The notes under the pieces were generated by a model. That model saw only the letters and a list, made by a program, of their open reading frames with translations, ran no database searches and was not told the DNA's origin. Positions 2,650 through 52,426 of a DNA stretch of 64,000 nucleotides are shown piece by piece (position 1 is the stretch's first letter; each line of letters opens with the position of its first letter). Both the position numbers and the translations under genes were made by a program. Source of the DNA: Apostichopus japonicus (taxonomy: Eukaryota; Echinodermata; Holothuroidea; Aspidochirotida; Stichopodidae); the NCBI RefSeq assembly GCF_037975245.1, contig NC_092582.1:21228577-21292576 (forward strand). The letters are read 5' to 3'.

Positions 2650-2803
2650 CTCCTTTGATGTTGTTGTCTCCTTTGATGATGGCGGCGCTGTTAACTTTTA
2701 TGACGTCAAAATACGTGTACAAATTCAAAGAAGTTAATGCTTCAGAATTAGCCAAAATGTCCGAGAGAGACCGACTAGCCCATCTTGTAGGACTAGGTTA
2801 TAC

Positions 2804-2835
2804 CCACTGACCTCTAACAACTCTAGAGGTCAGTG
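2804..2835. mobile_element. Ultra-short palindromic insertion A with 7-bp direct repeats
   Basis: A hairpin with 12-13 paired bases (CCACTGACCTCTA and TAGAGGTCAGTG) around a short loop is bounded by GTTATAC at 2797-2803 and again at 2836-2842. The direct repeat can be read as up to 9 bp (GGTTATACC). It lies in the loop of the foldback element. Its layout matches three other tiny palindromes in this window. Confidence 0.6.
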
Positions 2836-2842
2836 GTTATAC

Positions 2843-2876
2843 CATGGAGGTAAAACAGATCTGTTTCACCTCCATG
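2843..2876. repeat. Palindrome with CATGGAGG arms
   Basis: A 34-nt near-perfect palindrome: CATGGAGGT and ACCTCCATG arms around AAACAGATCTGTTT. It shares arms with the palindrome at 4197-4220 but has no matching direct repeat on its right side. It immediately follows palindrome A. Confidence 0.6.
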
Positions 2877-3437: not shown

Positions 3438-6400
3438 GTACGTGCTTTTATTTGTTCATGTGTTTGGACCTTGGCCTACAGAAACCTATAACTAACTTAA
3501 GCCTAACGACTCGAGTCTCGAGTAACGTTATATTTATGCTATTTTTGTGATCACTATTTCACATCACCAGAGAAAATGCAGAGAAGTCAAAACAGGGATT
3601 TACCAGAATCGAGTGGCATGCATCTATATTGAATACTCAGTAACTGTAGTGTTAGTGTAGGCTAGGCTCGAGGAGTAAGTTTTTAGACTTTTGTCAATTT
3701 GTATGTGCATGTCATTGTATCACTCAGAAATTACAGTATGTATATAATGTACTTGGACGGCTACAGTAGCTGCAGTCAGTGGGTCTGTCAGTATAGGCTT
3801 TCACGTATAGCAGTGTGGGGTAGGTATGTACCATAGAAGCCTCTCTGTGAGTTATGTTTGTTCTTACAAATGTTATGGTAGTTGGTACATACAGTAATGT
3901 GAGCCAAGCGTCAAGGAATGAGAAGAGGCTTAGATTTACTAGATATCTTCGTATGGAAAGCAGAAATTTTATTTATTGGAATTTGTTATGAATTCTTATT
4001 GTTTTTCAAGTTTAAATTATTTAAAGGTGGGGGCGCTCGTATACTTCTAGAAATAGGGGGCTTTGATTTCAGTGGTTTTGTGTGTCACCCTTTACTCACA
4101 TGACTTTTCTGAGTGGTCACCTGATCGTAGATGTACCTGGCTGTGAAAGGTATTGTGTTGCCAGCTATGGCCGCGGGTGATGTACGTTTGTTTACTCATG
4201 GAGGTGTTTTTACCTCCATGGTTTACTGTGCGTTGGTCAGTGTTGTGGATATTCAAGTTGATAGGTAATTAGCACAGTGTTTCCGTACGTATTTTGAATA
4301 CAGCCAGTTTGCAGTAACACAGTATCGAGATTGTAATTTGAAGCACGAAAGGTTGCTAAACATGGAGGCGTATTCCGGAGAAAGAAAAAGAACGTATCTG
4401 AACAAAAGAGATCATACATACAACAGGGGCAAGCACTTTTCCCAGAATTTCATTAACAGGTCGTGCGACATTCACAAACCGTTGGATCTGCAGCTATTGA
4501 TACATCTGCATCTCCAGATTGAGAACAATTGCTTTCGTCCACTTTGTTCGATAGTAGAGCTGAATGTGAAGCAGTCCCTTGGCCACCCTCTAATTCAAGG
4601 CGGGCAAGGTTGGGGAAATTCGATGAAGGAGAAACATTCAGCTTTGTATTATTGTATATAGGCCTACACGCAGTTAAGGACGGCGAAGCCGTCAATCTAC
4701 ACGATTTAACAAGCCGGAATAGTTGCGGATTAACAGCGGGTATAAATATCTGTATCGGTTTATTTATACTTGTGTTTATTTCCGTTGCCAAGAGGGGATA
4801 TGATATTGAACGTGGGGGAGGGTGTGTGTGGGGGTGGGGGCAGGGTCTTAGCTAGCGATGCGTCTCGCCGTCTTTGAGACGGCTAGATCGAAATGAAAGA
4901 CGGCCGAATTTGAGTGGGACGGCTTTTGAGACGCCAATAAATGGCTCTGTCCAGCCTCCCAATTTAACGTAACTATTAGTTATTTGCATGTACTACTCAG
5001 TCAACGGGCGCCGCACGTTTAAATTGATGACACAACACTGTGAAATAAATCACTGAAAAAACCCTGACAGTCTAGTCAACAACACAATATGATAACCAAC
5101 ACTCAATAGCCAACCAACTAGCTAGGTAAAAAAAATCGTTTCTTCGCGTGATCATTTTCGCACACCCGTGTATATGTATTTTTTTCCTCCTAGCTAGGTG
5201 TTGTGTATCACGGTTCTGTGAAAAGAGTGAGCTAATATTGACAGCTCCTGCGATGTTTTCCTAATATACCTGAAAAGGCAGTAGGAAAAAATTTTGCGTC
5301 GTAATAACGACCATGCAGTCTGTCTAGTTATAAAATGGCGCGAATTTCCGATTAATTTTTTATTAATGTGATAATGCGCGGGTTCGAGAAACCATTTGTC
5401 AAGGCAATACATGTATGCAACACAAGCGATCTTGCCTCGCAGTTAGTATGAATATCAACCCTTTTTCATTACGGTCGCCATGGTCGCATTGGCGACGACC
5501 ATTCTCGGCTGGCGATGAGAATTTCTGGAAAAATTAACGCTAGTCCCCAGACCCATAATACTGTGGCGATCAGTTTGCAACTGAAAATTTCACCAATGCT
5601 TTACAAAAATAACGAAGGTGCCCGCCCGATGCGGTACTACCCGGTTCCTAATTTATTACCCGAATCCTACGCAAAGTGTGATTTTTTTTGGGCAAACCGA
5701 AGGTTAGGCAGATTTCCCATTGATTTAGTGTGTTGTTAGGCTACCATGTGGTCGAAGATAACAGCAATAACGAAAGTATTCCATGGATATCTTATAACTG
5801 CGTCACAATTTCAGCGAATAAACAGATGGTTAGGCTTAGCTAGATTTCCGTTGACTTAGTGTGGTGTTAGGCTACCATGTTGGAGAAATTATTATTTATT
5901 CAATCGTTCCTTCTATTTCATAGAAGGAAAGGCTGACAAGGAAGTTTACGAGATGTTTATGGGTTATAGAAGGGATAACTAAAAAATAATAATCGCAAGT
6001 AGCTTTTTACTAATCGTTTATTGCAATGCGATCAAATTGGGCGAATAGCGCAATCTAGAGGCTATATGCGAACCCTGGGCCTGCATATTAGATAGTAGTA
6101 CTAGTAGTAATAACTGTTTAAGAGCTAAATTGGATACTTATATGGTCTGATCCAATAAACGTGGAGAGCAAGCATAATCAGCGGCGGCAGTGTGATGTTG
6201 GTAGTAATGTTAATTATATGAAGTCATTAACAAGTTAATGAAAGAAACAAAAGCAAATAGAAATTACTGAGGAAGGTTTTATACCTTATATTACACCTAC
6301 GTATTTGAACATGAAAACATAAAGTAAGATTTTTTTCACCGTACCCATTTTGTTAGAAAATAATATACATTAGCCTATGTCATTATTTTAATCAAAATGT

Positions 6401-9400: not shown

Positions 9401-12400
9401 CACTTCTGTCTATAGGCTAAAAATTTGATATTCGATATAGCATGCACAGCTTTCCCAATGGGTGAATCAACTACGAAACCAGGGCACCCAAACCGGTCGG
9501 ACTTCGACTGCTCACCATGTAGGCCTAAAAATATTATAGTCAAACCATGGAGCTGCTAGAGTAGCAACTCCATGGTCAAACTACAGCCTACGCCTGATGC
9601 AAAACTCGACCATAACTGTACAACCCACTAGTCTTGAACAGTTCTGAACGTATGAACAAACTACAGAGTTTTGTATCACACAACACACACGAAAAGGCGG
9701 TGTAATAATTTACTACTGACACTTCCACAGACAAGAACTATGCAGGAATTTCGCCAAGGCCATCGCTCCATTTACCCAAACCCGTATATTGCTTAATAGC
9801 CGTAACTACGGGATTGCTAAAAAATTACGTGACAACAGCGACGAACCGGTAGAGGGTAGTATTGATATTATTTTTGAATCGGGTGGTGTGACGGGTGGTG
9901 TGAAGGACAGAATCCACGAGCGAGCCCACCTTTAAGCCAAAGGTAGGCCATACATGAAATTTGCTGCCAGTTAAAGGCATTGAAGACTCGCCCCAAACCA
10001 CGTGCGGCCATCTGTGACGTTTTGTTCGTGTCGCTACAAAATGCAAACAGTAACAAAATATGATACATGATAACAAAACATGATACCTTTAGCTGGACCT
10101 GAGATGTCCATTGCTGTATCATTTATACACCGTGCTGTGGGTATCGACCGCAGCTGTATGTACTGAATGTACACTAGTGTCTAATTACCGACGGTAGCAA
10201 GCTGTGTGTGTATTTTCAGTTTACACTTCTGTTACACCTCATTCGAAACTAGGTCAGATTACCTGCATTAGACGTTTCTTTTTGCGAAAGTCTTCACACC
10301 CTTTAAGCCCCAAACATTGACCAGTTTTGCTTCAAGTGCCAACCAACCAACGCAATACAAGTAAATATTTGCAAGAAATTTCTAGAGTATCCACGACACA
10401 TTCCAAAAGATGTTTTAAACTTGTTCCAATATATTGTGGTCTTGATCCGTCTGCATGTAATAACAGTATTTTATGACAACAGTGTTAGTGTTTTAATAAA
10501 TAATAAATCACCATGGTTTTAAGAAACTTTCTGGTATCATTTAGTCTACATGTTCTTACTGTATATATGCAAATAATTTCTATTCCTGAAAAAGCAATGT
10601 TTTATTTTAAGCTGGCATTACCCAGAACATATGAGTTTCAAAAATTTATTGATCTCCAGAAGAACAGTTTTGCTGGAAGCTGTCTGACATCGGATCACAT
10701 AATTTTGGAGTTGACCATTGATGTCGGTGCTCTATGTAACAGATTGGCCAAAATCTCATTAGCTTTAAATGTGTCCAATAGGCTGTACATTGATCTATAT
10801 GTAAGAAGATTTAGAATGCAAAGTCTATTGGATTGGTTGGTGTAAGCCTATTGCACATTCTGCTACTGTAGCTGCTCTTAAACAGATGATTGTGATATGG
10901 CATGTAGCTGTGTACATACCATTCATCCTTATTTTCTTCCCTAAACACATTAACAAGTTAGTATGCCACCTGATCTTTCACATGAGCTTAAAGCTATGTC
11001 ACAGTTATTTTGTTGCACAGTGAATTGCCAGTCACTTGCATTTCAAGATGTCTTCCAGGGTTGTCTATCAGAAGCTGTCATCTTTGCTTTATATCAGATT
11101 GTAAAATGTTGTTTGTTGTTGTGGATGGTAATCTTGTCAAATTGGCGATAGCTAGCTTTCTCTGTGATTGAATATTCATTAACTGGCTCAGGATAGCCAT
11201 AGTATAAAGGTTTGGTGAGAATTTCACCAAGCATTAGGATAGTATCTTCTGGTGGAAAGCTTGAATGCCTGCTAAACAACCATTTGATGTCGCCACCATC
11301 TTAAGCTGTATCTTCCTCCTGAGATACACCAGCATAGAGCATCACATTCCAAGTGTTACTAACAGGAGCAGCCTTCACAAAGGATGGCCATGTGGTGCTA
11401 ATACAGAATAATCAATGCACTGGACAATTGCCATCAGATGATTCTGGTATTAAACAAGGACTCTTAAAAACTAGTTGAGGGCTATATTACTTCTTTAAAT
11501 GCTGGTTGAATTCTGATGACATGAATGAGTGGTCTAATATTAAAATGACTAAGATTCCAACAGAAGACATGAAAAATAACTTGTCCAACGGCTGTGATTG
11601 GTTTATGTCATTACCAGTGAGTCATGTGTAAACGTGAGAGAGTGGTAGACATGCTTGTTTGTTGTAGACTTATTAACTGATAAGACTTGTAATTTAAATA
11701 AGTTAAAAACAAAGTACTGTATCATTACAAGACAAGTCTAGGAAAGGTATGAACACTGAAGACATTCAGTTATGTGATTGGGTTGAAAAGTTTGTACCAT
11801 TTGATGCAAACCATTAGATGGCAACATTGCCATAAATTTGAAACCTAATCAGCCTAGCAGTCAAGTAGTTGTACTTAAACCATTAATGTATATATCGGGG
11901 GAGGGGCAGAGGAGGGATATCTTGGGTATCATAGTCCACAAAGTTTAACTGGGTATAGACGGATATCATATTGGGGTGGACATGCAGCACATTACTGGCC
12001 TAACTACAGTAGTAGAACCACAGTGGCAAACTGGTTTGGGACAAACTGGCAATGTGGTGAAATGACCTGTTTTGCAGAAAAGAATAACATGACACTTATT
12101 TCTGTGGGGTTTCAGTTACAAGTCAAGGTTTTGATATAATTATTCATTCATTTTGCAGGCTCCTTGGCCAGAGAGAGTCCAGTCCCGGAAAGCCCTAGAT
12201 TGTGGAGCTGGTATTGGCAGAATCACTAAGCACCTGCTGCTGCCGTTGTTTGAAACTGTTGACCTAGTTGAACAGGATAAGGACTTTCTTGAAGCAGCAC
12301 CAAAGTATATAGGGCCCTCTGCTAAAAGAGTAGGACGTTACATCAACGAAGGACTCCAAAGTTTCACTCCTCAGCCAAAAGAATACGATGTTATTTGGAT

Positions 12401-12671
12401 CCAGTGGGTTTTAGGACAATTGACTGATGAGCATGTGGTCAACTTTTTGAAGAGATGTGTCACAGGGCTTGCAGATGATGGAATGATCTTCATCAAAGAA
12501 AATATTTCAAAGGAGGGCCTTGTCTTTGATGATGAAGACAGCAGTGTAACCAGATCTCCCACAGAGCTGAAGGCATTGATACAGACTGCAGGACTCAAAA
12601 TTCTCAAAGTTGAGAAACAGAAGAAATTTCCTGTAGGTCTTTTTAAAGTTGAAATGTATGCTATGAGGTAG
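3252..12671 (+). CDS. NTMT1: N-terminal Xaa-Pro-Lys N-methyltransferase 1 (two coding exons)
   Basis: The product is a SAM-dependent methyltransferase that methylates the alpha-amino group of proteins with X-Pro-Lys N-termini exposed after Met removal; known substrates include RCC1 and ribosomal proteins, in nucleus and cytosol. Joining 3252-3437 to 12159-12671 (both phase 0, GT and AG present) gives 232 aa against 223 in human. Visible signatures are YWSKVPRTVDGMLGGYG (27-43), the SAM-binding DCGAGIGR (76-83), DVIWIQWV (139-146) and FDDEDSSV (185-192, with the Asp equivalent to human Asp180). The position equivalent to human His140 is Gln149. The ATG at 3252 is chosen because the methyltransferase N-terminus follows it directly; a second Met lies at residue 5. 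An ATTAAA at 12761 could be the polyadenylation signal. The intron is 8.7 kb and transposon-rich. The gene is convergent with VARS. Confidence 0.95.
3438..4840. other. NTMT1 intron, 5' part
   Basis: Intronic sequence with no convincing exon. Apart from the small palindrome at 4197-4220 no structured repeat is recognised. G/T-rich sequence just before 4840 supplies the target site of the hAT element. Confidence 0.6.
4197..4220. mobile_element. Ultra-short palindromic insertion B with 7-bp direct repeats
   Basis: CATGGAGGT (4197-4205) and ACCTCCATG (4212-4220) form a 9-bp stem with a 6-nt spacer. GTTTACT lies immediately on both sides (4190-4196 and 4221-4227). The whole insertion is 24 bp. 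Confidence 0.65.
4841..7882. mobile_element. Non-autonomous hAT element, 3.0 kb, perfect 8-bp TSD
   Basis: Left terminus CAGGGTCTTAGCTAG (from 4841) is mirrored by CTGGCTAAGACCCTG (to 7882). GGTGGGGG flanks both ends (4833-4840 and 7883-7890). No transposase frame is evident in its 3042 bp, so it is probably mobilised in trans or dead. Near the right end lie two copies of a G/C-rich module with CCCTAAGG and CCCCTGGACCCCACC (about 7245-7345 and 7735-7785), also found in the hAT element at 15195-16744. Inside, about 125 bp apart, are two diverged copies of a segment ending GTTAGGCTACCATGT (about 5703-5755 and 5828-5880). Confidence 0.85.
7883..12158. other. NTMT1 intron, 3' part
   Basis: Mostly unique, A/T-rich intron with no supported exon. 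It contains the palindromic insertion at 9546-9574. About 10260-10310 holds GCGAAAGTCTTCACACCC, whose diverged inverted relative lies at about 46235-46265 in a CRYZ intron, so this is probably one end of a dispersed element. The intron ends with the acceptor at 12157-12158. Confidence 0.6.
9546..9574. mobile_element. Ultra-short palindromic insertion C with 7-bp direct repeats
   Basis: CATGGAGCTGCTA and TAGCAACTCCATG pair with one mismatch around a 3-nt loop. The 29-bp palindrome is bounded by GTCAAAC at 9539-9545 and 9575-9581. Confidence 0.7.
12159..12671 (+). CDS. NTMT1: NTMT1 coding exon 2 (residues 63-232)
   Basis: The acceptor TTCATTTTGCAG ends at 12158; the frame opens at Ala63 and stops with TAG at 12669-12671. 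It carries the whole Rossmann-type methyltransferase core. The codon at 12417-12419 is CAA (Gln149), where the human enzyme has His140. Confidence 0.95.
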   Translation, partial: APWPERVQSRKALDCGAGIGRITKHLLLPLFETVDLVEQDKDFLEAAPKYIGPSAKRVGRYINEGLQSFTPQPKEYDVIWIQWVLGQLTDEHVVNFLKRCVTGLADDGMIFIKENISKEGLVFDDEDSSVTRSPTELKALIQTAGLKILKVEKQKKFPVGLFKVEMYAMR

Positions 12672-17097: not shown

Positions 17098-17994
17098 GGC
17101 TGAATGTTTGGTCTTTTGACATTTCCCATAGGTCAGTGTTGGGACTGAATGTTTGGTCTTTTGACATTTTCCATAGGTCAGTGTTGGGACTGAATGTTTG
17201 GTCTTTTGACATTTCCCATAGGTCAGTGTTGGGGCTGGATGTTTGGTCTTTTGACATTTCCCATAGGTCAGTGTTGGGGCTGGATGTTTGGTCTTTTGAC
17301 ATTTCCCATAGGTCAGTGTTGGGGCTGGATGTTTGGTCTTTTGACATTTCCCATAGGTCAGTGTTGGGGCTGGATGTTTGGTCTTTTGACATTTCTGATA
17401 GGTTAGTGTTGGGGCTGAATGTTTGGTCTTTTAAATTTCCCATAGGTCAGTGTTGGGGCTGAATGTTTGTTCTTCTAAAATTTCTGATAGGTCAGTGTTG
17501 GGGCTGAATGTTTGGTCTTTTGACATTTCCTATACGTCAGTGTTGGGGCTGAATGTTTGGTCTTTTGAAATTTCTCATAGGTCAGTGTTGGGGCTGAATG
17601 TTTGGTCTTTTGACATTTTCCATAGGTCAGTGTTGGGGCTGAATGTTTGGTCTTTTAAATTTCCCATAGGTCAGTGTTGGGGCTGAATGTTTGGTCTTTT
17701 GACATTTTCCATAGGTCAGTGTTGGGGCTGAATGTTTGGTCTTTTGACATTTTCCATAGGTCAGTGTTGGGGCTGAATGTTTGGATTTTTAAATTTCCCA
17801 TAGGTCAGTGTTGGGCCAAATGTTTGTTCTTTTGACATTTCTCATGGGTCAGTGTTGGGGCTGAATGTTTGGTCTTTTGACATTTTCCATAGGTCAGTGT
17901 TGGGGCTGAATGTTTGGTCTTTTGACATTTTCCATAGGTCCGTGTTAGGGCTGAATGTTTGGTCTTTTTGACATTTCCCATAGGTCAGTGTTGG
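17098..17994. repeat. 45-bp minisatellite, about 20 units
   Basis: The unit is about 45 bp and contains TGTTGGGGCTGAATGTTTGG, then CTTTTGACATTTCCCATAGG. Most units keep the length, some are shorter by 2-3 bp (TTTTAAATTTCCC variants). Because 45 is a multiple of three, unit-length frames stay open on both strands; these are repeat artefacts without a start context or splice signals. It sits between the 3' ends of NTMT1 and VARS. Confidence 0.9.
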
Positions 17995-19857: not shown

Positions 19858-22800
19858 CTGAGTGAGAATGAGATAATTGACATTATGGAATGCTGGCATG
19901 AACACTTTACAAAGGTCTTAATCAGGAGTGTTACAGTTGTATTTAAAACACTGGCAAACTATTTAGGGATACAATAAATATATTGTAATATTACTTGAGC
20001 TATTTTAATCCTACAATTGATCAAGCATCAAAGCAGCACCTGTTATGCGTTCTCGACATTTAAATTGTCATAAATACACCAATAAAATCACTATTAAAGT
20101 GAGAGTGAATAATGAAGGAATCAGATACCATGTCTCTACCAGTAAGGTAGCAATGAAGGTTCAATCGGGCAAAAAAGAAAAAACTGAAATGACTCGCATG
20201 TGTGACAGGGAGGGGGTGATGGAAATTCACTTAACTTTCAATCAAAGATAACTTGATGAGAAACTAATTTCAAACACTTTTTTCAGCGGAGAGAAGTAAA
20301 CGTTTGATAATTGACTATAACGGAACTCAGGAGAAGGCCTTAAAATGGGTAAATATTTAACTCACTTATTCACAGGGGAAAATATTATTTCTACAGCTGT
20401 TGATTTAGAGCAAATTCTATATACTGAGAAACTTGACAGCTAAACAAACATTCCAAATATCATCAGATTTCAAAGATAAATCAACAAGAAGACTATAATA
20501 GACATAAAGCTTTTGAAGAACATTTGCCTGTCTGACATCACATATCTACTGTAATCTACTCCAGGGAATACTGTAAGTTCAACCATATCTTGAGCTGGCA
20601 GTTCGGGGCAAGACATTGAGATAGGGTTTTCAACTAACAGTGGAATATTTTTCTTCCAACATAAGTGTCACATTTTCTGCCACAGGAATATCTCTTCCGG
20701 AGTTGACCATTAACCAACTTCAAGTGATTAGCAAGGCAATTGCACTAATGTGGAGGTTCATCCATGCTTTGTTTATTCCTTGCCAGAGGCAAAAGGAAAC
20801 AAGGTGATGTTGCATAAGTATGTGTGTGAATGACACCCTGGCTTGTAAACACATTAACTCAAAACCTGTATGGTCGGTGAACTTTATATTTGGTATGTAC
20901 ATGCACCTTATTTGAAAAGAAGAACCATATTGTTTTTGTGGTGATCCATCTTCATTTGAGGTCACCAGAGGTCAACATCCAAACACCTTTAAAACATGTT
21001 AAATCACAAAGTGGAGGTTGGATGAACTCCATATGTAGTACATGGATCCACCTTATGTGGTAGAAAAACATTGTTTTCTGAAAACTTGTAAAAACAATTT
21101 GACCCTATGTGGACTTCAAATGATATTTCTACATGCCAAGTGTTAAGTTCACCTATGCTAAACTTACTGTGTTATTGTGTTATGACAATTTTCAGTCTTT
21201 GTTCTATGTTGACCTTTCACCACCAATTTCAATATGGCTCTTCTACACACCAAGCAGGATCTATTAACCAATGATAATTTCAACCTTGATGCACTTTTTG
21301 ATGTAATCATGCTAACCACAATTTCAGACTCTGTGACCTGGCACTCAATAAAGATGGATGGATCCACATGTGAAGTATGAAGTTCATTCACCACATATTA
21401 TCTTGAGTTACAGTGTTAAGCCAATGTAACACACCCACAAGCACACACCATAGAACAGATTCTTTTTGCCTTCCACAAGATATAAAACATAATGTAAAAC
21501 AAAAGTCATCACCAATGCCATCAGAAGCATCTTTTACTCTTGGTCAAGACAGATGAACATGATTTACCTTCTGCAATCCAAGGGTTTGATGCTATCAATC
21601 TGTTACAAACTACCATTTCATTACACTCACCTTTTCAGAATTTGATTTCCTAACATTCTCTGGTACTTTAGTTTGGTAACCCTCAACCTCCATCTTCTCT
21701 TTGAGTTTATCTTGCTGTGATACCAGTTTCTCTTTCTGCTGCTCAAGTTTAGATACCTCCTTGTTGGTATCTATGACTCCCTGGGAAGGATAAATTCAAA
21801 CTAGTGTTGGCATGGTGTATGAAAGAGTCCACATTACTGCATCACATAAGTCTTAACTTTATTACATATTAGTTCAGCTTCCTGTTTGTTGGTATCTATG
21901 ACTGCATTAGAAGGATAAATTCAAACTAGTGCTGACATGGTGTATGAAAGTGTTCACAGTACTGCATCACATAAGTCTTAACTTTTTTACATATCAGTTT
22001 AGCTACATCTTTGTTGGTATCTATGACTGCATTAGAAGGATAAATTCAAACTACTGTTAACATGGTGTATGAAAGTGTTCACAGTACTGCATCACATGAG
22101 TCTTAACTTTATTACATATTAGTTCAGCTTCCTGTTTGTTGGTATCTATGACTGCATTAGAAGGATAAATTCAAACTAGTGCTGACATGGTGTATGAAAG
22201 TGTCCACAGTACTGCATCACATGAGTCTTAACTTTATTACATATTAGTTCAGCTTCCTGTTTGTTGGTAGCTATGACTGCATTAGAAGGATAAATTCAAA
22301 CTAGTGCTGACATGGTGTATGAAAGTGTTCACAGTACTGCATCACATAAGTCTTAACTTTTTTACATATCAGTTTAGCTACATCTTTGTTGGTATCTATG
22401 ACTGCATTAGAAGGATAAATTCAAACTACTGTTAACATGGTGTATGAAAGTGTTCACAGTACTGCATCACATGAGTCTTAACTTTATTACATATTAGTTC
22501 AGCTTCCTGTTTGTTGGTATCTATGACTGCATTAGAAGGATAAATTCAAACTAGTGCTGACATGGTGTATGAAAGTGTTCACAGTACTGCATCACAAAAG
22601 TCTTAACTTTTTTACATATCAGTTTAGTTACATCTTTGTTGGTATCTATGACTGCATTAGAAGGATAAATTCAAACTACTGTTAACATGGTGTATGAAAC
22701 AATCAAGTTAGTTTATACTAGATTCCCTTGTACAAATATTGAATATGTTTGTTGTGACTTTTTAGACATGAAGTTAATCAACAATTTCTAATCTAGTTGT

Positions 22801-25800
22801 AACTGAATGTGGTTAGGTTGGCTTGGTGAGAAATTCAAACTACTTAGCTTCATGTGGCTCTGTTTTCTGGTTTCTATAAGAATCAGTTGAAAAGTTAATT
22901 ATTTCTGAAGAAATAACTGTTTGTTTACACCTACCCGAAGTAACATATGAACTTCACATTTCTCTGAGGCAGTTTGCATTGCACAACCGACTGGAGGAGT
23001 CTCATTAAGGAGAATGGAGACTTCGCCTGATGAAGATAGAGTCTTCACAGTCTCTGCATAATCTGCTAAGGCCTTCGCTGTAGCACTGTCTGTACACCGT
23101 AAATATACTGCAGAAAAGAAATGCATAAAGTATCATTACATGGATTATCACCAGGGGGAAGCAATAAGAATGGAATGTCATTTGTGTAAGTTCATCAAAC
23201 TGAGATCAATTTCATAATTGCAGTCAAATTAAAAAGAATATTTAGTGATTAGTTACCATCAGCTCGTTGTTTTGTTAGTTGATAGTCAGATCTCATCGAC
23301 CTTGCTTTGTTCACAATGATCTGCACAAAGTCCACTGTTTGCTCCAGTTCTTGGTTATACCATGGAAACTAGACAAAACAGAACCAGTCTTTTAAAATAT
23401 AGCAAGAAAAAACTGAACATACATACTAATAGGAAGGAAATAAGAGGTAATACTGCTCAGGTAGTTACTTGCAATAGCTTATCATGCTGTACATTGTTAC
23501 CATATAATGGTCACAGTATCTTAATCCACCATAAACCAGTTGGCCTACATAACTCATCTGGTACTTATGCCAATTTACCAACTACTGTATCAGAACATCA
23601 GGTAATCAACACTATTCCCTTCACCTTTATATATCACTTAACCAGGCATGGAGACTTGGAGAGTCCACCACTCTTTCTAAACTAATCAAATCAATTTTAA
23701 TTACTACATGAAATCTTTACCCACTTTTACCCAATTTGGCACACAGTCAAGAGAGGAGGGTGAAGAGGAGGGGGGGGGGGGGGGAATACAGACAGGCCAT
23801 GATGAATAAATCAAAAGATTTTAAAGCAATGAGTTATCGATGATATATAAAGCGATGCACTTGCAAGTATCTTTGTTCGTTCTAAAAATACTTGGAAACT
23901 AAGCTAAAGCTAGTACAATGTTCTCTACCTATTGGTATACTCACATCTTGAGTTTCAGGATATGGCGATACACAAATACTGGGTGGAGCCTCTGAGATCC
24001 TTCTTGGCAATCGTTGGAACAATTCCTCTGATATAAATGGCATGAATGGACTGATGAGACGTAGCCCCACATCTAGACAGGTGTACAGTATCTGGCGGAT
24101 ACCGTCTGTCCTAGAGTTATTGGTCTGAATGTGAGGCTTTGCATATTCCTGAACAAGATAACAGAAAACCACAGATTGCTGATACTATATGATCATATAA
24201 GAAAGCTACTTGTATTGTAAAGGAGGTGAATAAAATGCATAAGGTTGGGAAATCTTCCAGTTACATGCACCAGTAACATTACAGCTATATTCTGCCACTA
24301 TATTTAAAACTCTCCACCATAGGCTGTCGTTCTACTTGTCTTTAAGTTAAATTCATATTTTTGAAAGACATTGTTGCAGAACTCTAAGCATTCAATGACA
24401 CAAATAGAAACCATTCAGATTGAAGTGGACATAGTGAATATAGAACAAACCCTTACCAAGTAAACATCACAAAGGTCATACAGCCAGAAGGAGAAGATGG
24501 CTGTAGTAATAGCTGGGAAATCATATGCTGGCCAGCCCTCCTCACATTTCTTGACAGTTCCTGACAATCTGCTGAGAATCCATAGGTCAACAGGATGCTC
24601 ACTTCCTGATAACTGGTTTTATATAAAGAAGAATTTGGGATAAATTGTGTTATACAATGAGCAGCACTAGTCATGCTTTAAAGATTTACACATTGAAAAA
24701 ATGTTAGAAAACATTATGTATTAAAACTACGTCAAGGATCTTCATCAAAGGTAAACTAATACCAGAGTTGTTACAAAAAAATTTCATTTTAATATCATTT
24801 TCCTCACATAAGTCTTTTCCTATATGAGGGGGGGGGTGGGGATTGGTGCACATATTGCAGTCACTTCATGTTTGAAATTTAGTAAATACAAACAAAACAC
24901 ATAAATAGCCAACAAACACATGTATGAATATGAAACAACAGTGCTTACTTTGAATTCCTTCAGTGGTTTGAAATCGTCTCCCAATACCATTAGAGCAAAT
25001 TTGGTGGCATTCCATAGTTTGTTGCAGAACCTTCTGTATCCTTCCACACGTAGCACATCAAGATTGATATCACGACCTAGGCAGATTGAAAAACAAATAG
25101 GAGAGTCTTACACTGAGCTAATATAGTTCTAGATCATCATATCAGTTAAACTAGCAATGTTGTAGCACTAGTAACTTTGCAAAGTGTCTTGTATCACCTA
25201 TCATGGGTCACACACCATGATGAAAACCACTTCATGTTGTTTTAATGGTAGCAGAAATAAACCACATTTTGTACTGTTTGCTTCCAAATTGTGGAAGCTT
25301 GTAAGCAACTTCCAAACATGACACATGATCAAGTTGTTTTAACACCCAAAAACCAAACTACTGTAACTGCACACCAAGTTACAGACCCACTCAGACAGTC
25401 CAGCAACCAAACTACTGTAACTGCACACCAAGTTAGAGACCCACTCAGACAGTCCAGCAACACAACTACCGTAACTGCACACCAAGTTACAGACCCACTC
25501 AGACAGTCCAGCAACCAAACTACTGTAACTGCACACCAAGTTACAGACCCATTCAGACAGTCCAGCAACAAAACTACTGTAATTGCACACCAAGTTACAG
25601 ACCCATTCAGACAGTCCAGCAACAAAACTAATGTAACTGCACACCAAGTTACAGACCCATTCAGACAGTCCAGCAACAAAACTACCGTAACTGCACACCA
25701 AGTTACAGACCCATTCAGACAGTCCAGCAACACAACTACCGTAACTGCACACCAAGTTACAGACCCACTCAGACAGTCCAGCAACCAAACTACTGTAACT

Positions 25801-28800: not shown

Positions 28801-31800
28801 TCCAGCAACAAAACTACCGTAACTGCACACCAAGTTACAGACCCATTCAGACAGTATCTTCTCTACTCTTCTTTCTGTGAGACAAAGTGGCCAGTAGACC
28901 ACACTTCACATTTATCCTGACAATTGTGCTTATTGGTATCTAACAGAATGGAAAGACATTTCAAATCTTTGTGACTTCTCTCAAATAAGCATACTTCATA
29001 AAATCTGCATAGCTTTGGTTCTGGTATTTCACTAACCCATCCACTGTAGTGATAAACATTATAAAGCAAAACAATTAAAATGACACGATTGCTTGTGTGC
29101 CATCTGGCTTACCTTGAGCAGTGTAGGCACAGAGGGCAAATCTAAGAGCATCAGTCCCACACTCTGGGATTCCATTTGGATAGTCTTCCTTCTGTCCAGC
29201 TTTAGCTTTAACTACTTCTTTTGGATCCAAATTACCCTTTTCCAATAATTTGTGCAAATCCTATGATAAAAAAGATTAAAAAGGTCTTGGAGAATTCATA
29301 GAAACATGGAGCGAAATCAAAGTGTAATCCTCAGACTACAAAGTCTTGGAGAAGATTATCAAGTCCATAAAATAGGAACACCTTCACTCATTGCTGGCAC
29401 ATCAGTAATGCCTCTCTTAATCTTGACAGAGAAATGGATGACTAACCATAGATACTCCACAGCAAAATGCCACTCTCGTAACACTAAATAAAGGATATTT
29501 GAATAAGTTGGAACTGACTAATGATCTCGGATGTGACAACATTTTCCAGCATTTCTATTTTTCAAATGGCTCTTCTCAGCACATAATACAAAGTTGAATG
29601 TGGCTAAACAGTAAAACAGGCAATAATACAATATCCATCATACATGAGACTTTCAATTGGATTGAAGCAGAGATTATCCTGCTCAAGCTGTTCAGATATT
29701 ATAAACTCACTTCCAGGGTGATTCCTCTGATAACATCTACTGGATCAATCACATTTCCCAGTGACTTGCTCATTTTCCTACCATGAGCATCTCTGACCAT
29801 GGCGTGCAAGTACACCTCTTTAAATGGTAAGTTGCCCATGAGCTTGGTTCCCATCATTACCATACGAGCCACCCAGAAGAAAAGAATGTCATGACCAGTT
29901 TCAAGCAAAGTCCCAGGATAGAAAACCTCCAGATCTTGGGTCTGAATTAGAAGAGAAGTAGATATTTAATCAACCGTTGGTTCCAGTGTCCTGAGTGTAA
30001 TGATCTAAAGCATCTGCTTGGATTACTTTCTTTGCCATCAACCATGCTTGTAACAGAAACCCTTTGGTTAGTTTATTGCATTCAAGATACAAGACATATT
30101 TAATCTGCTCATAAGGTATCTGTTTGTCTTTCAAAGTAAATATCAGTATTTATCCTTGCACTTTCACACTATCATAGCAGGTGTACAAAAATCTAACCTA
30201 CTAGATGTAAGAGCATGACCTTATCTGTGGTAGCATGACCTTATCTGTGGTAGCATTACCCTATCTGTGGTAGTATTACCTTGTATGTGGCAGCATTACC
30301 CTATCTGTGGTAGCATTACCTTGCATGTGGTAGCATTACCCTGTCTGTGGTAGCATTACCCTATCTGTAGTAGATTACCTTATCTGTGGTAGCATTACCT
30401 TATCTGTGGTAGCATTACCCTATCTGTGGTAGCATTACCTTGTATGTGGCAGCATTACCCTATCTGTGGTAGCATTACCTTGCATGTGGTAGCATTACCC
30501 TATCTGTGGTAGCATTACCTTATCTGTGGTAGCATTACCTTATCTGGCCAACCAAAGATAGAAAATGGAAATAATCCAGAAGAAAACCAAGTGTCCAGAA
30601 CATCTTCATCTGCGAAGCATAAACAGACAACAATAAGATTAACTGAATGAATCAGAAAGCAACCCATTCTGGCATTTGTGAATAGTTTAGTCCAAAATAT
30701 ATGCTTCATATGCAACGTTGTAAGGCAAAGCTACATTCATCAATATGAAGCTGTTAAAAATACTGTTTTATTTGACTTACATTGACTACTCCGCATGAAA
30801 TGCATCCATTCAATGAGAAAACATGGTGTGACTGTTCTGTGCAATTACCAATCACCAGTTCTATTTAGAATCAAAGACATCCAACTATTTCCATTGTCTT
30901 TATGAATTCTTCTCTAACTTGGAATCACATATGATACGGCAATCCAATTACACAGAGCAACATACAAAAATTACCAAAGGAAAAATAACTGCTTCAAGCC
31001 ATCATAATGGCCTGTTTGATCTCTAGTAGAGGATGTGTTTATAGCGCAGCATGAGACAAGAATTATTTTAGCATGAAGTTGTGAGGGACTGTGAACATAT
31101 TGTAAGTGTCAATCCAGCTTCCGAAGCCATAATAAAGGTCCACCTCATTCCTTGAGTTACAATACCATGTATGAACAATTACAGTTTTCATTTACTGTTA
31201 TCATCTTACCCCACTTTAGGGATATCTTGTCTTTACTGACTTTGAATCTAGCAGCTGCCTTCTCTTTGGCTTCTTCTTCTGTGTGCCCACAAACCCAGTA
31301 CTTCATGTCTGTGTCCTACAGCAAATAAAAGGAATGAACCTGTTTCATTATTCATTGAAATAACCCAAAACATACCAGTGAATTGCTTAACAAAATCAAT
31401 GAAACTTGGACTATGTATTCAAGCTTTACACTTATCAAGTTTTTATTGCAACATGGTGATTTTATCTTCAACAGGCTGATATCACTACGTATGTCAACTC
31501 TATTTTGAAAACTTCAACCTGTTTTAACAAATTAGACAGAAACTTGTAGCGAATGCAAAAACTGTTACCAATCAACTATCTTGTTTCTTTAACTCATGTC
31601 ATCTGGAAATACTTGGAAATACAGACACTGAAGGACATCAAAGTAAACTGTTTTATTTTAGTCATTCAGCCTTATTTCCTCACATTGTTATCCTGGCAAT
31701 GGAACTCCTTCACTGAAATTGTCTCATTGTAACTGCTCACCTGATCTTCTATAGTACCTACTAATCATCATTGTTTGTATCATGTGACATAAATTAACCA

Positions 31801-37800: not shown

Positions 37801-40800
37801 AGATATCAGATTTGACAAAAGATATAAGATCACGAATCATACTGTAGCTCACACTGACCACAGTCACCAACATGGCATCTTTCTGTGTCTACACAGTCAC
37901 TAACATGGCATCTTTCTGTGTCTACTCATTCACTAACATGGCATCTTTCTGTGTCTACTCATTCACTAACATGGCATCTTTCTGTGTCTACTCATTCACT
38001 AACATGGCATCTTTCTGTGTCTACTCATTCACTAACATGGCATCTTTCTGTGTCTACTCATTCACTAACATGTCATCTTTCTGTGTCTACTCATTCACTA
38101 ACATGGCATCTTTCTGTGTCTACTCATTCACTAACATGGCATCTTTCTGTGTCTACTCATTCACTAACATGGCATCTTTCTGTGTCTACTCATTCACTAA
38201 CATGGCATCTTTCTGTGTCTACTCATTCACTAACATGGCATCTTTCTGTGTCTACTCATTCACTAACATGGCATCTTTCTGTGTCTACTCATTCACTAAC
38301 ATGGCATCTTTCTGTGTCTACAGTCACTAACTTGTCATCTTTCTGTGTCTACTCATTCACTAACATGGCATCTTTCTGTGTCTACTCATTCACTAACATG
38401 GCATCTTTCTGTGTCTACTCATTCACTAACATGTCATCTTTCTGTGTCTACTCATTCACTAACATGGCATCATTCTGTGTCTACTCATTCACTAACATGG
38501 CATCTTTCTGTGTCTACTCAGTCACTAACATGGCATCTTTCTGTGTCTACTCATTCACTAACATGGCATCTTTCTGTGTCTACTCAGTCACTAACATGGC
38601 ATCTTTCTGTGTCTACACAGTCACTAACATTGCATCTTTCTGTGTCTACTCATTCACTAACATGGCATCTTTCTGTGTCTACTCATTCACTAACATGGCA
38701 TCTTTCTGTGTCTACTCAGTCACTACATGGCACCTTTCTGTGTCTACTCATTCACTAACATGGCATCTTTCTGTGTCTACTCAGTCACTAACATGGCATC
38801 TTTCTGTGTCTACTCAGTCACTAACATGGCATCTTTCTGTGTCGACTCAGTCACTAACATGGCATCTTTTTGTGTCGACTCAGTCACTAACATAGCATCT
38901 TTCTGTGTCTACTCATTCACTAACATGGCATCTTTCTGTGTCTACTCATTCACTAACATGGCATCTTTCTGTGTCTACAGTCACTAACATGGCATATTTC
39001 TGTGTCTACAGTCACTGACATGGCATCTTTCTGTGTCTACAGTCACTAACATGGCATCTTTCTAGGTCTACTCAGTCACTAACATCTTTCTGTGTCTACA
39101 GTCATTAACATCTTTCTGTGTTTACACCAGTTCCTTACAGATAAAGACAACCATTCATTCCATGAATAGCTTGAAAGACACACAAAAAAAGTATTAATGT
39201 TACATTTGGTCATATGATAGGGTACTATTCTGTACCTGTACATAGAATGGGTAACCCTAACAATGTGTGCAGCTCTACAATGATATTTGTGTTTAAAGAC
39301 TAAAACATATTTTACAATTAATATTTCAGCATTATTGAATTTTCAGGGTTATTGATGTTTTTGTCTCAATTTCTGAAGCATATTATGTCATTCCAAAGTA
39401 CCAATAAAGCAAATACGCACACTTCTAAAGCTGTATCTGGTCATTAAAATTTGTTTATTCTTACTTCAATGTCCGAGATGGCTGATTTCAGAGTGCACGA
39501 AAAGTTGATAAGTCTGTTGCTTCTATAAATGGTCCCATCCTCCATAAGTCTGATGAAAGCCTCAGTTACAGCCTTGTATAGTTTTGGTTCCATGGTAAAG
39601 CATTCTCTGTCCCAGTCATATGAGGAACCCATCAATTTAAGTTGGTTGTAAATTTGATCACCTTTCCTGAAATATATGACATGTCTTGCTTGCAGATTCA
39701 AATTACTAGTTAAACATCTTGGATACACTTATGCAGAGCATTACCTTACTAAACTGAAAATGGTAAGTGTTGATAAGGATTAAGTTTGCGCATCTTTTGG
39801 ACAAGAACAAGAAGTCTGAACATGTTAGTGAATTGCCAACTACAAGCTTTCATCCATTCTACCACTTGTTGCATTGAATAAGAAAACAAGCTAAGGTATC
39901 TTCCATTGCAATGAGAAAGTAGCAGTTCATAGGCATCCACCGAAACAACTTTAATAATTATAGCATTAATATACACATTCTGACATATCAATGCACAAAC
40001 AAGAATTAAAGCAAATGGTTTACCATCTGAAGAGTAGTCTTTAATCCAGACATTCATGGCAGATGTTGTGCAGTAGTGGTTTGCAAATTAACTAAAGTAA
40101 CAGCAAAGTAAAGGGTGTATAAAGTAATACTAAACTCCAGCCAACAACTTTGATAAATTAACACATACTCATTTTTCCAATTCCAAATTTCATCTACAAA
40201 TTTCTCTCTCCCAAGATCATGTCTTGTTAGCTTCTTTTCCCTCCACAGCTTCTTCTCAACAACAACTTGAGTAGCAATGCCAGCATGGTCACATCCAGGA
40301 TTCCACAGTACAGTTTCACCTCGCATTCTGTGCCTAAATTCAAGACAGAAATAACAATGATAAAACGGGTCTAATGGCTTCAACCTGACAAAAAGTTGCA
40401 GACAACTATCTCTAGATGGCCGACATGTACTTAGCCATTTCACACAAGTGTCATTGCAACAACCGATACCCCTGTAAGCTGTTACCAATGCACATTACAT
40501 GCTGAAGTACAAATCACTTGAATACTTAAAATGTATGATGATCATGGAAGATATAAGTTACTCAGAGGTTATACACAGAAAACTCAAGTAATGATGCAAT
40601 GAAAATTGTCTGATGGTAATGTTTTGACTAACATTAAATAATATTGCACTTGGGGCTATCCTTTGGTTGATCAAAACCTTCTTTGCTTACCATCTGGAAA
40701 GAGCATCCTGAACAGATGATGTAAGAGCATGTCCCAGGTGAAGTGTGCCAGTAACATTAGGTGGTGGAATGACCATCATAAACTGACCTTTAGGATTGGG

Positions 40801-48400: not shown

Positions 48401-51400
48401 GACAAGCCAGCAAAAGTCAGATTCTGAGAACTTTGCAAACATTACAAGAATCCAATATGTGTAGTTGCAGACCTTGCATTCCAAAATTTGGTATATGACT
48501 ACTATGATGTCATCCCACCACCTATTCCTATATCACAGTGATGTAAAGTTTCTACACCATGCATTTCCATGGCAACCATTGCTATAGTAATCGAAACAGT
48601 AACAATGAGTGCAAATCCAATTGTCTACAGTATCTCATCCCGATGTACATTACTTGAGATGAGATGATAAGTTCTAACAAAGAAAAGCTTGGATAAAAGT
48701 ATTTATGAATTTTGGATCCACCTTAAGGCCCGGTCACACTACAGCGATATTTTATCGGAATATGGTCCGATTTTTTCGATTTTAGGCGGAAAATTGAGGT
48801 TTGTGGTAGTGAATGCAATGAATGCAGTGGAATATTTGAATACCTGCTCCAAATCCGAGGGGTTCTGGAACGGACTACATTATGAAGTGACGTCACATCG
48901 AAAACGATAAAAATCGAAAGAGAAATCGGATAGCTTTCCGATAAAAGGAAACGGAGTCAATATCAAAAGTTAGGAGAGGGCTATTCCACATCAGAATGGC
49001 TCAACAGATAGCAAATCAGGTCCTTTATCACTGTGGCTAGAAGACCCGAACGAAAAACTGGCTGTTTCGATTCCTCTGGGAAAATCGGATAGTATTCCGA
49101 TAAAAAATCGGTATAGTGTGACTGGGCCTTTACTGTACACACCTATAGTTCTTTGTGGTGGTCAAAATGACATTGTCTTGAAACTCATGCATGAGCATGA
49201 AAACTCCAAAAGTAGTGCTGAAATCAAGTTCATGCTTAGTGTGTAGGATTCACCTGTTACAGTGAGTACCAGAACTCACTTGTGATCTGTCAAACCTTTA
49301 AATAGTTGTGTGAAGTGTTACATTAAATGTTCGTTAATTAAATATGGCACAGAATTACAAACCCTGTTGGCTTTCTGGAATGTTACTCTATTAGCTCAGG
49401 ACATGCTACAGTATTTAAAGTGCCATTGTCCTACAGTAAGCACAAAAGTATAAGCAATTGTAGATAGGGCTTCCTCTTTTGAAGCATACCCCTCTGGGAG
49501 CAAAATAAGTGAGCTAATCAAATATCTTTCTAACTATGAGTTAAACATTATCCTGAAGCTGCTCTTTCTGACATATACTGGCTGCTCATGTGCTAAGCTT
49601 GAAAAAAACAAATATGCCCACCTGTTTTTTATTGGCCCAAAGCAAATACTTTTTCTGGATAAGCAAATGAAGCACACTTCTCTATTATGGATCCACTTAG
49701 TTATAACTCAAGACATTTTTTCTTGCCAGGAGACTTCAAAGGATAAAGGAGTGGATTGCATTGTTGAGATGCTGTCTAATGTCAATCTCCAAAAGGATTT
49801 GGACATGGTGTCTGTTAATGGAACTATTGTGGTACGTTCAATTTGGGTGATTTTCACCTGTATTTAGTAGTTTGATGTAAACCAATTCTTTATTCCTATA
49901 CACTAGCTGTGCAGAGCTTCTTTGATTTGAAAATATACAACAAGTTGCACCTTTGAAAGCTTTTTGTTCATGACGATGTGAATGACAATGGAGATAATAC
50001 TACACTTGAATTACTTAAGAGGTATGCCCGGAAGGACATAAGTTCCAGTACTACCATTTATCTGTCTTATAAGTATTTAACTGTCTGTAAAAAGGAAAAG
50101 ACCATTTGGACATATTATTAGGTGTACATAGTTGGTTTAGTGCAGTTTACTACTCTCATGCTGTCATGCATGATATTTGCTACTCATAGTTACTCTGAAA
50201 AGCTCCCTGAATAGGAATATTTATGTGCCTTTGCTTCTGGTTCAAATGTCCATTCCCACTGTACATTAATAGTATTATCTGGAGTAGATTGGATCCTATG
50301 CATATTTGTCCCACATATCTTCCTACCCCTTTCTCTCCACTAGCAACATAAATAGTATGAGCCAACACCCACTGAAATGTAATGCAGCCATGTAATGCAC
50401 ACATCCCATAATTGAAAGTGCTTAAATGATTTTACTGATCATCCACAGCACAGCAGTCTCTTCTTGGGTATGGTTATTGGAATGTAAAGTGAAAAGTGCA
50501 GTGAAGCAGCATAGATTTATGGTTCAGAAACAAAGATAACATCTGTATTGCTCAGCTTTTAATGACTTTGACAATAGGTAAACAGAGGTCAAATTTTTCC
50601 CCGTAAATTTTCCTTTATAAAGGGCAAGCTGAGATAATTATTAGTGTGTGATATATGTCAATTTGTGTTTTTCAGGACTTAAGCCAAAGACGATCTCTCC
50701 CTACTGTTGATGATGTTTAATTATAAACGTAAAGGAAAAGTTTTTATTACTCCTATCTTTTGACTGGAAGGGAGGTAACTTTTATTATACTCACATGGTG
50801 TAAGGTGATCTCTTGTTTCTCCTCTAGGTCATTGGAAGCAGAGGAAATGTAGAGATTTCTCCGAGGTCCATCATGGCTAAGGAAGCTAATATACTGGGTG
50901 TCATGCTCTGGAACTCATCTGAAGTTAGCATTTGTCAACTTTCTCAATACTATTATTACAGCCACTTGATTACATATTTGCTTCAGGTTGTATAAACTTC
51001 AATAATTCACAGAGGCATGTTGAATGGAAAATCATTTCTAATATGGCCAGAGTTCTTCCAACTTAGCTTCAAAGTGCACAGACTCCATATTGTATAAACA
51101 CAAAGTTTTGTTGGCATTCAGAATCGATGTTAGTTTTAATGGTGTTTAAAGCAGCATTTTGCGTCCTTTTCTATGATTTTTCTCAACCTCACTGACTCCA
51201 CTATGCCATAACAACATACATAACTAGCTTATCTATTTATATTTTACTTCAAATGGTGGCATAAAAGTCGAAAAATTGCAACTTTCAACTTTGTTGTTCT
51301 CCAAGATATTGCCGTTGCCGTTGGGAACCCAATAAACCTCGCCCATAATATGAATATTTAAACACTACGAACGTCATTGACAGATACGTAATATAACACC

Positions 51401-52426
51401 ACGCTTGATTTGTGTACAGTCTATATGGCAGTTGTACCAGAGAGTTGCATAACAACTCCCTGGTTGTACCAACGCAAAGTCTTGAATCTATTTTTTAGCA
51501 ACGGCTCATAACTAAACCTGCATCTCTGATTGGTTGAATTCAAACTAGTGGGTTTGGGAACTGAATGCGATTAATTTTGTATGTGGAATAGTCGCCAATT
51601 AACGTTTTTGGCAGGGAAAAACTTGGCTAATATCTTAATTTGCTGTTTTGTGATTTGATGTATGTAAACAACTCGATGGACATGTCAAAAAAGTAGAAAA
51701 CGGCGACCAAACGCAAAATGCTCATGAATAAACATACTATTCACTGATTGGTGGAATTCAAACTAGTGGATTTGGAGATATGAAAACTTTGTCGAGGACA
51801 CTTTCACTCGTTATCGACATAAATCGTTAATTACTCGCTAATTAACGCTCTTGGCAGGGTGAAACTTGGATGGTATCTTAGTTTGCTGTTTTATGATTGA
51901 TACATCTAAAAAAATTGATGCACACGTTAAAAAGGTGGAAAAAAGCGACCCAACACAAAATGCTGCTTTAATAGTCTGATAGGTCAGCCCATGTCACTGT
52001 TGCTTCTACGCTGTGTCAAGCAAAATCTTATGTAAAATTTATCAATATATGCTGTGAAAGAATAAGTCATGCTGGGTAATACTGCATAAGAACAATAGAT
52101 TAATTAATAAGTTTGGCAAGATCAGAGATTTTTACTTCAAGTTCAATATTATATTCGTAATTATTGAGCAAAGTAGCACAATCAACTGTGTGCTGTTTGT
52201 TACCACTCTGCCATGATAGATTTACATACAATATACAACGTATTGAATTCTGTTAATCTTTCAGGAAGAAATGCAAGAAACAGTAAGAGAGGTGGTAAAA
52301 GGAACAGAATCTGGAGAATTGGTGCCAGTTATTGGTAAGGAATACACACTAGAAGAAGCCAGCCAAGCACACTTTGACATTGTCAACACCAAATCTTCTA
52401 CTGGTAGATTGGTTCTGATACCATAA
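45311..52426 (+). CDS. CRYZ: Quinone oxidoreductase / zeta-crystallin-like (8 coding exons)
   Basis: A zinc-independent medium-chain dehydrogenase/reductase that, in the zeta-crystallin family, uses NADPH for one-electron reduction of quinones and can bind AU-rich RNA; cytosolic. Eight exons join in phase to 1002 nt, 333 aa (human CRYZ 329). Visible landmarks: [15 protein letters not shown] (12-26), [16 protein letters not shown] (48-63), [28 protein letters not shown], the NADPH-binding HGASGSVG (159-166), [31 protein letters not shown], and C-terminal STGRLVLIP. No zinc-ligand cysteine cluster is present, as expected. The ATG at 45311 is the first in the exon; Met12 at 45344 aligns with the conserved start. 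A 5' non-coding exon must exist. The last donor, GTTAGC, is weak. Confidence 0.93.
45577..45729 (+). CDS. CRYZ: CRYZ exon 2 (residues 42-92)
   Basis: 153 nt, phase 0 to 0. Contains the [10 protein letters not shown] signature and GSDGAGVV. Intron 2 (1172 bp) contains AAAGGGTGTGAAGACTCGCG at about 46236, a diverged inverted relative of sequence near 10260-10310. Confidence 0.95.
46902..47065 (+). CDS. CRYZ: CRYZ exon 3 (residues 93-147)
   Basis: 164 nt, ends in phase 2 before GTAAGT. Encodes [20 protein letters not shown] and [16 protein letters not shown]. Intron 3 is 323 bp. Confidence 0.95.
47389..47440 (+). CDS. CRYZ: CRYZ exon 4 (residues 147-164)
   Basis: 52 nt micro-exon. Encodes [16 protein letters not shown]; the next intron (576 bp) interrupts the Rossmann GASGxVG motif exactly between Ser164 and Val165. 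Confidence 0.93.
48017..48166 (+). CDS. CRYZ: CRYZ exon 5 (residues 165-214)
   Basis: 150 nt, phase 0 to 0. [20 protein letters not shown] then [13 protein letters not shown]. Intron 5 (1563 bp) carries a MITE at 48727-49128. Confidence 0.95.
48727..49128. mobile_element. MITE with long terminal inverted repeats, TTAA-type flank
   Basis: The left end GGCCCGGTCACACTA and the inverted right end GGCCCAGTCACACTA continue as imperfect inverted repeats for roughly 45 bp (CGATATTTTATCGGAATA versus CGATTTTTTATCGGAATA). The flanks are TTAA (48723-48726) and TTTA (49129-49132), compatible with a decayed TTAA duplication. Size 402 bp, non-coding, in CRYZ intron 5. Confidence 0.75.
49730..49831 (+). CDS. 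CRYZ: CRYZ exon 6 (residues 215-248)
   Basis: 102 nt. [20 protein letters not shown] matches the family. Intron 6 is 996 bp with nothing recognised. Confidence 0.94.
50828..50923 (+). CDS. CRYZ: CRYZ exon 7 (residues 249-280)
   Basis: 96 nt. [20 protein letters not shown]. The donor that keeps frame with exon 8 is GTTAGC, weaker than the other donors of this gene. Intron 7 (1341 bp) holds a TTAA-flanked MITE. Confidence 0.88.
51150..51967. mobile_element. TTAA-flanked MITE with internal duplication
   Basis: Termini AGCAGCATTTTGCGT (left) and ACACAAAATGCTGCT (right) are inverted copies, flanked by TTAA at 51146-51149 and 51968-51971. Inside, about 51515-51730 and 51740-51967 are diverged direct copies (GGTGGAATTCAAACTAGTGG, TTAACG, TTGGCAGGG, and CGACC then AACGCAAAATGCT or AACACAAAATGCT). 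The right end therefore exists twice. The 818-bp element lies in CRYZ intron 7 and hosts palindrome D. Confidence 0.75.
51438..51462. mobile_element. Ultra-short palindromic insertion D with 7-bp direct repeats
   Basis: CAGAGAGTTG and CAACTCCCTG pair with one mismatch around a short loop. The 25-bp palindrome is flanked by GTTGTAC at 51431-51437 and 51463-51469. It is nested inside the TTAA MITE. Confidence 0.7.
52265..52426 (+). CDS. CRYZ: CRYZ exon 8 (residues 281-333) and stop
   Basis: 162 nt including TAA at 52424-52426. Encodes [18 protein letters not shown] and the C-terminal STGRLVLIP. Confidence 0.95.
   Translation, partial: EEMQETVREVVKGTESGELVPVIGKEYTLEEASQAHFDIVNTKSSTGRLVLIP

Follow-up and report, generated by a model that had tools for sequence, protein, structure and literature searches.

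Short palindromes between direct repeats in the genome of Apostichopus japonicus are very probably excision scars of P-superfamily transposons

In a stretch of 64,000 base pairs (bp) of the genome of the holothurian Apostichopus japonicus (NC_092582.1, positions 21,228,577 to 21,292,576), hereafter the window, four short palindromes each lie between two identical copies of a 7- or 8-bp sequence, and a fifth palindrome stands beside the first of them. We propose that these palindromes are very probably scars left by end joining at sites of P-superfamily cut-and-paste transposons, rather than independent insertions. In the model, the insertion of an element whose inverted ends measure about 33 bp and start with CATGGAG would duplicate 7 bp of the target (8 bp in what is called family C here). 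The transposase would then cut one strand at the element border and the other about 17-18 nucleotides (nt) inside, with each flank keeping a 3′ tail of 17-18 nt. One end sequence would be present in both tails, in opposite orientations, and the tails would be trimmed, filled and ligated by cellular end joining. The expected product is the duplication, the left tail, the right tail and again the duplication. The palindrome so formed can reach about 36 bp; trimming of a tail shortens it and filler lengthens it. The observations behind this reading are the duplications, the recurrence of the ends, the complete elements of a sister family, the P-type transposase inside one of them, the stop of the retained ends at 17-18 nt and the diversity of the junctions; from these we infer the cleavage itself and the repair pathway. 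We place high confidence in this reading for families A and A′, moderate confidence for D and C, and less for B.

The features of the window are as follows, with the palindromes given on the + strand and the duplications without strand. The family C scar is a 31-bp palindrome with arms CACTGACCTCTA and TAGAGGTCAGTG (2805-2835) between two copies of the 8-bp duplication GTTATACC (2797-2804 and 2836-2843). The final C of the right copy is also the first base of the fifth, 34-bp palindrome, CATGGAGGTAAAACAGA followed by TCTGTTTCACCTCCATG (2843-2876), which we read as a family A-like scar with both cut tails retained whole; its right duplication is not recognisable, and a paralogous copy of it is present in locus L136, running off the end of that stretch. 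The family A scar is the 24-bp sequence CATGGAGGTGTTTTTACCTCCATG (4197-4220) between copies of GTTTACT (4190-4196 and 4221-4227). The family D scar has 29 bp, CATGGAGCTGCTA plus GAGTAGCAACTCCATG (9546-9574), between copies of GTCAAAC (9539-9545 and 9575-9581). The family B palindrome has 25 bp (51438-51462), lies between copies of GTTGTAC (51431-51437 and 51463-51469) and is located inside a high-copy dispersed repeat. Re-reading of the window bore out the positions and letters of a preliminary description of all five palindromes and of the direct repeats around four of them, including the absence of the right-hand repeat from the fifth. At the first site the palindrome given there stands, while the extra leading C that it assumed is unneeded, as an 8-bp repeat around a 31-bp palindrome starting with CA fits equally.

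These palindromes are in excess of chance. A scan for inserts of 14-60 bp of the form CA...TG, with at least 7 of the 8 terminal bases paired and exact 7- or 8-bp repeats outside, found exactly the four palindromes in the window, compared with 8 matches summed over 150 dinucleotide shuffles (at most 1 each) and none in the reversed sequence, and the comparison with shuffled sequence that had been called for thus shows the excess. A stricter 7-bp scan found three of the four palindromes together with two matches in a tandem array near 63.4 kb, with 4 matches in total from 30 shuffles. When the condition of CA...TG was dropped, many spurious matches came from tandem arrays (25.4-28.8 kb and 63.4-63.7 kb), and the reversed sequence gave 68.

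Further evidence comes from the whole assembly (671.6 Mb in 35 contigs), to which all genome-wide counts refer. For the 24-mer at 4197-4220, exact matching finds 24 places, with none in the reversed control, and matching at up to two mismatches finds 43, of which 30 were read in context (the 24 exact ones and 6 with one mismatch). An exact 7-bp repeat is present at 24 of the 30. Half of the 30 lie in one dispersed repeat with GTTTACT, and among the other 15, which lie in different contexts, 11 have exact 7-mers that differ from one another. When the flanks of the 4197 site are joined with a single GTTTACT, 5 genome matches are found (1 exact and 4 with one mismatch; control 0). These empty sites, with one 7-mer and without the palindrome, were what the preliminary description had suggested looking for at orthologous loci; those found lie within that dispersed repeat, in copies with about 89-96% similarity to the window across the aligned pieces, and are paralogues, not alleles.

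In Drosophila the P transposase cuts one strand 17 nt inside the element, according to the part of PMC7776569 consulted, and it is therefore expected that the scar arms are shortened copies of one transposon end, CATGGAGGTAAAAACAG. This 17-mer occurs in 545 exact copies (reversed control 0) and in 892 at up to one mismatch (control 10). From the 545 exact places we took the earliest 73 in contig order, hence not a random sample, which after the dropping of an identical duplicate (L046) gave 72 rows and, after the merging of opposite-strand readings, 70 entries, with L108 still present twice and with the likely paralogous pair L083/L084. A 7-bp duplication is present at both sides in 55 of the 70 entries (40 exact and 15 with one mismatch), while permuting the partners gave a mean of 0.43 and a maximum of 3 exact matches in 72, this control covering exact matches only. 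Repeats at L080 (12 nt) and L057 (72 nt) were rejected as chance-like and lie outside the limits set for the junction count, and the one at L110 (46 nt, one mismatch) was counted, though it is possibly due to chance. The 40 exact duplications comprise 36 different 7-mers with a bias in letters: T at position 2 in 34, A at position 6 in 32 and C at position 7 in 26. The GTNNNAC pattern seen earlier in the window resembles a target preference of a transposase, to be compared with GTANTAC of Galileo (the part consulted of PMC4168063).

The retained end stops at 17-18 nt in both families A and A′, with 18 nt favoured. The element end beyond position 17 continues with AAGGAG, as seen at the extended ends L130 and L131. 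The match to the element end measures 17 nt in 19, 18 nt in 49, 19 nt in 2, 20 nt in 1 and 29 nt in 1 of the 72 family A rows, and 17 nt in 3, 18 nt in 10, 19 nt in 1 and 21 nt in 1 of the 15 A′ rows; it is noted that the rows were picked by a 17-nt match, so that shorter retention on that side lies outside the sample. Exact matches to 23 nt of the end number three genome-wide, namely the two extended ends and the scar L086.

Between the duplications, 40 of the 55 interiors are simple joins of two 18-nt ends, giving 16 different products, and the remaining 15 include one with filler (L086), one mixed with family B (L056) and some with point changes; at L108 the left end is copied again, apparently from a template. 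Moreover, at L072, L050, L088 and L054 just 16-19 nt of one end are present between exact duplications. A microhomology of 1 nt is found at 25 of the 40 family A joins, compared with 6 of 36 if all joins with 17 or 18 nt on the left side were equally likely, and at 4 of 8 A′ joins, compared with 9 of 36. From the recurrent 26-, 31-, 20- and 17-mers we infer pairing of the terminal base of one tail with a matching base of the other, followed by extension.

An alternative is that the 24-35-bp palindromes are themselves mobile, as ultra-short miniature inverted-repeat transposable elements (MITEs), with a transposase recognising the outer arms only. Outside the GTTTACT repeat, exact 24-mers are flanked by 8 different 7-bp duplications, all exact, one 26-mer recurs identically at 15 of the 55 family A entries, as a mobile mini-element would also give, and the empty sites are compatible with such mobility. 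By contrast, the same two ends have given 16 different simple joins besides the filler variants, without the shared internal sequence of a MITE family, and the one-sided products are not inverted-repeat elements. In addition, agreement with the element end breaks off after 17-18 nt, where the P transposase cuts, the intact ends are 33 bp long, and P elements have internal binding sites for the transposase as well (the part of PMC7776569 consulted). Since the interiors vary by site as repair junctions do, we consider a family of ultra-short mobile insertions to be very unlikely. The earlier suggestion of transposon remnants holds in that the arms derive from transposon ends and the repeats act as target-site duplications, and the sites do not look like a tiny mobile family.

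The link from scars to complete elements was reached via the element ends at loci L114 and L115 and via the 23-nt end pattern, which has 152 genome matches at up to three mismatches (control 5). Among the matches listed, 48 of the variant end CATGGAGCTATAAACAGAAGGAG, that of family A′, were counted, several of them as facing pairs; the search for paired ends around six transposase loci gave nothing convincing. Ten facing A′ pairs were read at both ends, eight of them of about 4.45-5.1 kb, one on C17 of 10,646 bp and one on C9 of about 11.2 kb, and all ten are surrounded by an exact 7-bp duplication. In the eight shorter pairs 33 bp are common to both ends, and the C17 ends differ by one mismatch. 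The A′ 17-mer has 697 exact genome copies, and the arms of the A′ scars match the ends of these intact transposons; at the scar places read, the earliest in contig order and not random, duplications are present in 10 of 14 entries (7 exact). Subtracting the places that match the longer end from the 17-mers (545 − 3 plus 697 − 48) leaves about 1,200 shortened copies, in which full palindromes count twice. Because of this double counting, and of the 15 of 70 and 4 of 14 entries that have no duplication, we estimate, by extrapolation from the first contigs, several hundred A and A′ scars in the genome and not about 1,200. As a separate observation, at C2:31519238-31519738 nine of the 697 A′ 17-mers lie mostly at a spacing of 35 bp, as if a scar had joined a tandem array.

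The fixed identity of the arms bears also on hairpin-templated repair, the second possibility raised in the preliminary description, and on slippage. On this view the filling of a break by fold-back copying would make the palindrome, with the flanking repeat as a by-product. The palindromes are perfect, the filler at L108 is apparently templated, and two copies of family B extend the palindrome into the flanks, all of which would fit. However, the arms are a few fixed ends that recur genome-wide (the 545 and 697 exact copies) and not local sequence, and the A′ arms match intact transposon ends. We therefore give hairpin-templated repair next to no probability; it is not required, as the joining of two long 3′ tails is enough.

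The transposase was found in the C17 element, which has an open frame of 675 amino acids (L115, 3357-5381, − strand) with a P-type transposase domain (PF21787, 2.2e-26) and an N-terminal stretch like the importin-binding region of RAG1 (PF12560, RAG1_imp_bd). Against solved structures the protein matches P transposase (6p5a, 5.6e-07) and RAG1 (21wb, 0.0004), and there is 27% identity over 266 amino acids to the protein of L066, which has all four P-transposase Pfam domains. A second such frame, with PF21787 (3e-27) and the PF12560 stretch, lies in L114 (1724-3652, + strand), where only the left element end is seen. These two are the sole PF12560 matches found in the genome, in which PF21787 has 45. 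The GTP-binding insertion (PF21788), present in the L066 and L067 proteins, was not found in the 675- and 643-amino-acid frames, which end 67 and 64 amino acids past PF21787, and a scan covering these two frames alone, and no other exons, gave no match to THAP families at E up to 0.001. The source elements have a P-type RNase H core, 7-bp duplications and inverted ends starting with CA, here of 33 bp compared with the about 31 bp of the P superfamily.

It might be argued that the palindromes are scars or remnants of another superfamily, such as hAT, Mutator or a Transib/RAG-like one, in view of the RAG1-like N-terminal stretch and of the 8-bp duplication of family C, since hAT elements also make 8-bp target duplications. 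This is highly improbable, as the catalytic region matches P transposase (PF21787; 6p5a in the Protein Data Bank), the duplication has 7 bp compared with the 5 bp given for Transib, and the retention of 17-18 nt agrees with the cut of the P transposase (PMC7776569, the part consulted).

The other families are placed as scars on their common anatomy, so that their assignment is a putative one. The end pattern of family D has 221 matches at up to two mismatches (control 5), the sole exact match being the window itself. At six places read, related palindromes with interiors of 29-36 bp have an exact 7-bp duplication in five cases and one with a single mismatch in the sixth, this sample being hand-picked, with three of the six chosen as listed facing pairs. 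For family C five places were read. Four are palindromes with 8-bp repeats, related ones of 31 and 22 bp at L136, L138 and L139 with exact repeats and one at L140 with a mismatch in the repeat, and the fifth is not a palindrome. L136 is a copy of the window region, while the exact repeats GTCCACAT and GTTTAAAT flank this type of palindrome at two further places, neither copied from the window region. Family B has 2873 matches at up to two mismatches (control 3). That these are thousands of independent scars was rejected, as the two copies read (L134 and L135) share the flanks of the window copy; we hold that family B is one old palindrome copied along with its host repeat, which likely began as a P scar.

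Several points weigh against the excision reading. The samples of families A, A′ and D were not drawn at random, and that of family A holds the repeated and paralogous entries named above. The duplication is absent from 15 of the 70 family A and 4 of the 14 A′ entries, where deletion or decay of the flank is assumed. The recurrence of the 26-mer has been mentioned, and counted by kind of product the excess of 1-nt microhomology is much smaller, 4 of 16. No complete family A element was obtained, only unpaired ends; P-transposase matches are about 2.4 and 8.2 kb away from the extended ends L130 and L131, which are unpaired. None of the 45 genome matches of PF21787 lies inside the eight shorter A′ pairs or the C9 pair, so that the transposase is seen in one complete element only. 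The family C pattern has 8 matches, equal to the 8 of the reversed control. Both copies of family B that were read have inverted flanks, GTTGTAC and GTACAAC, which are not direct repeats and extend the palindrome. Finally, no source element was found for families B, C and D.

The mechanism is already known, the setting is new and the transposase is unusual. The preliminary description knew of no described family with these features; excision junctions of this anatomy have, though, been published for the P element of Drosophila melanogaster, as described in the part of PMC2895639 consulted: an 8-bp copy of the target on either side, inside it at most 17 nt of each element end, and microhomology or (templated) filler between the two tails. 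The layout is identical to that of the scars here. The differences are that here the duplication has 7 bp (A, A′, B and D; 8 bp in C), that up to 18 nt are retained and that the copies stand in a reference genome, while those of the fly came from a laboratory cross. Galileo, also of the P superfamily, makes mostly 7-bp duplications with the palindromic consensus GTATTAC or GTANTAC, which resembles GTNNNAC here, while its ends differ; excision scars are unmentioned in the part of that account consulted (PMC4168063). Zebrafish Pdre2 with THAP9 is likewise a P-like element of an animal, which its transposase can excise, differing in its reported 13-bp ends and 8-bp duplications and in its THAP-type protein, compared with no THAP match in the two RAG1-like frames here (PMC10983969, a preprint, and PMC7776569, as far as the parts consulted go). 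The Aplysia N-RAG-TP is also a transposable element encoding a sequence like the RAG1 N-terminus, said to be composed wholly of it, while here a P-type RNase H domain is encoded in the same open frame (described in the part of PMC8355894 consulted). A narrow search of titles and opening lines of abstracts, with partial coverage of the literature, found no account of excision scars treated as a repeat class across a genome, nor of a P transposase with a RAG1-like N-terminus, which is weak evidence of novelty.

P-excision scars have so far been known from engineered fly crosses, and if our reading is correct they are a readable class of repeats in a wild animal genome too, one that could readily be taken for a novel family of tiny transposons. 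Such scars would tally past excisions, expose families whose elements are nearly gone and make many independent repair outcomes available for one defined break. More tentatively, and at somewhat less than even confidence, we suggest a P lineage whose transposase has a RAG1-type N-terminal region and cuts with a stagger of 18 rather than 17 nt. Its excisions would account for hundreds of scars in the germline and hence for a ratio of truncated to intact ends above ten to one. If there is such a lineage, its scars would document, in nature, the joining of long 3′ tails in an animal germline, often by pairing of the single base at one 3′ terminus with the opposite tail. The pairing of a RAG1-like N-terminal stretch with a P-type catalytic core bears on the origin of that part of RAG1, whose N-terminal region would then be tied to P elements besides Transib- and Chapaev-type transposons.

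It is also noted that, as the family C scar abuts the family A palindrome in the window, scars stand beside scars at L018, L045 and L056, where family A scars lie at or in a family B palindrome flanked by GTACAAC; perhaps the GTNNNAC flank is a favoured target.

Elsewhere in the window there are an open frame with an AdoMet-dependent proline di-methyltransferase domain (12153-12671; PF05891, 1.4e-63) and retrotransposon-like frames with a zinc knuckle, a reverse transcriptase and an RNase H, the match to an integrase zinc-binding domain being below the cut-off (56040-59982). The window gave no Rfam match at gathering scores and no tRNA. Tandem arrays have units of 45 bp (17098-17994), 125 bp (21761-22699), 33 bp (37864-39085), 25 or 50 bp (63299-64000) and 54 bp (25351-28855), the last having three frames that stay open for more than 1100 codons.

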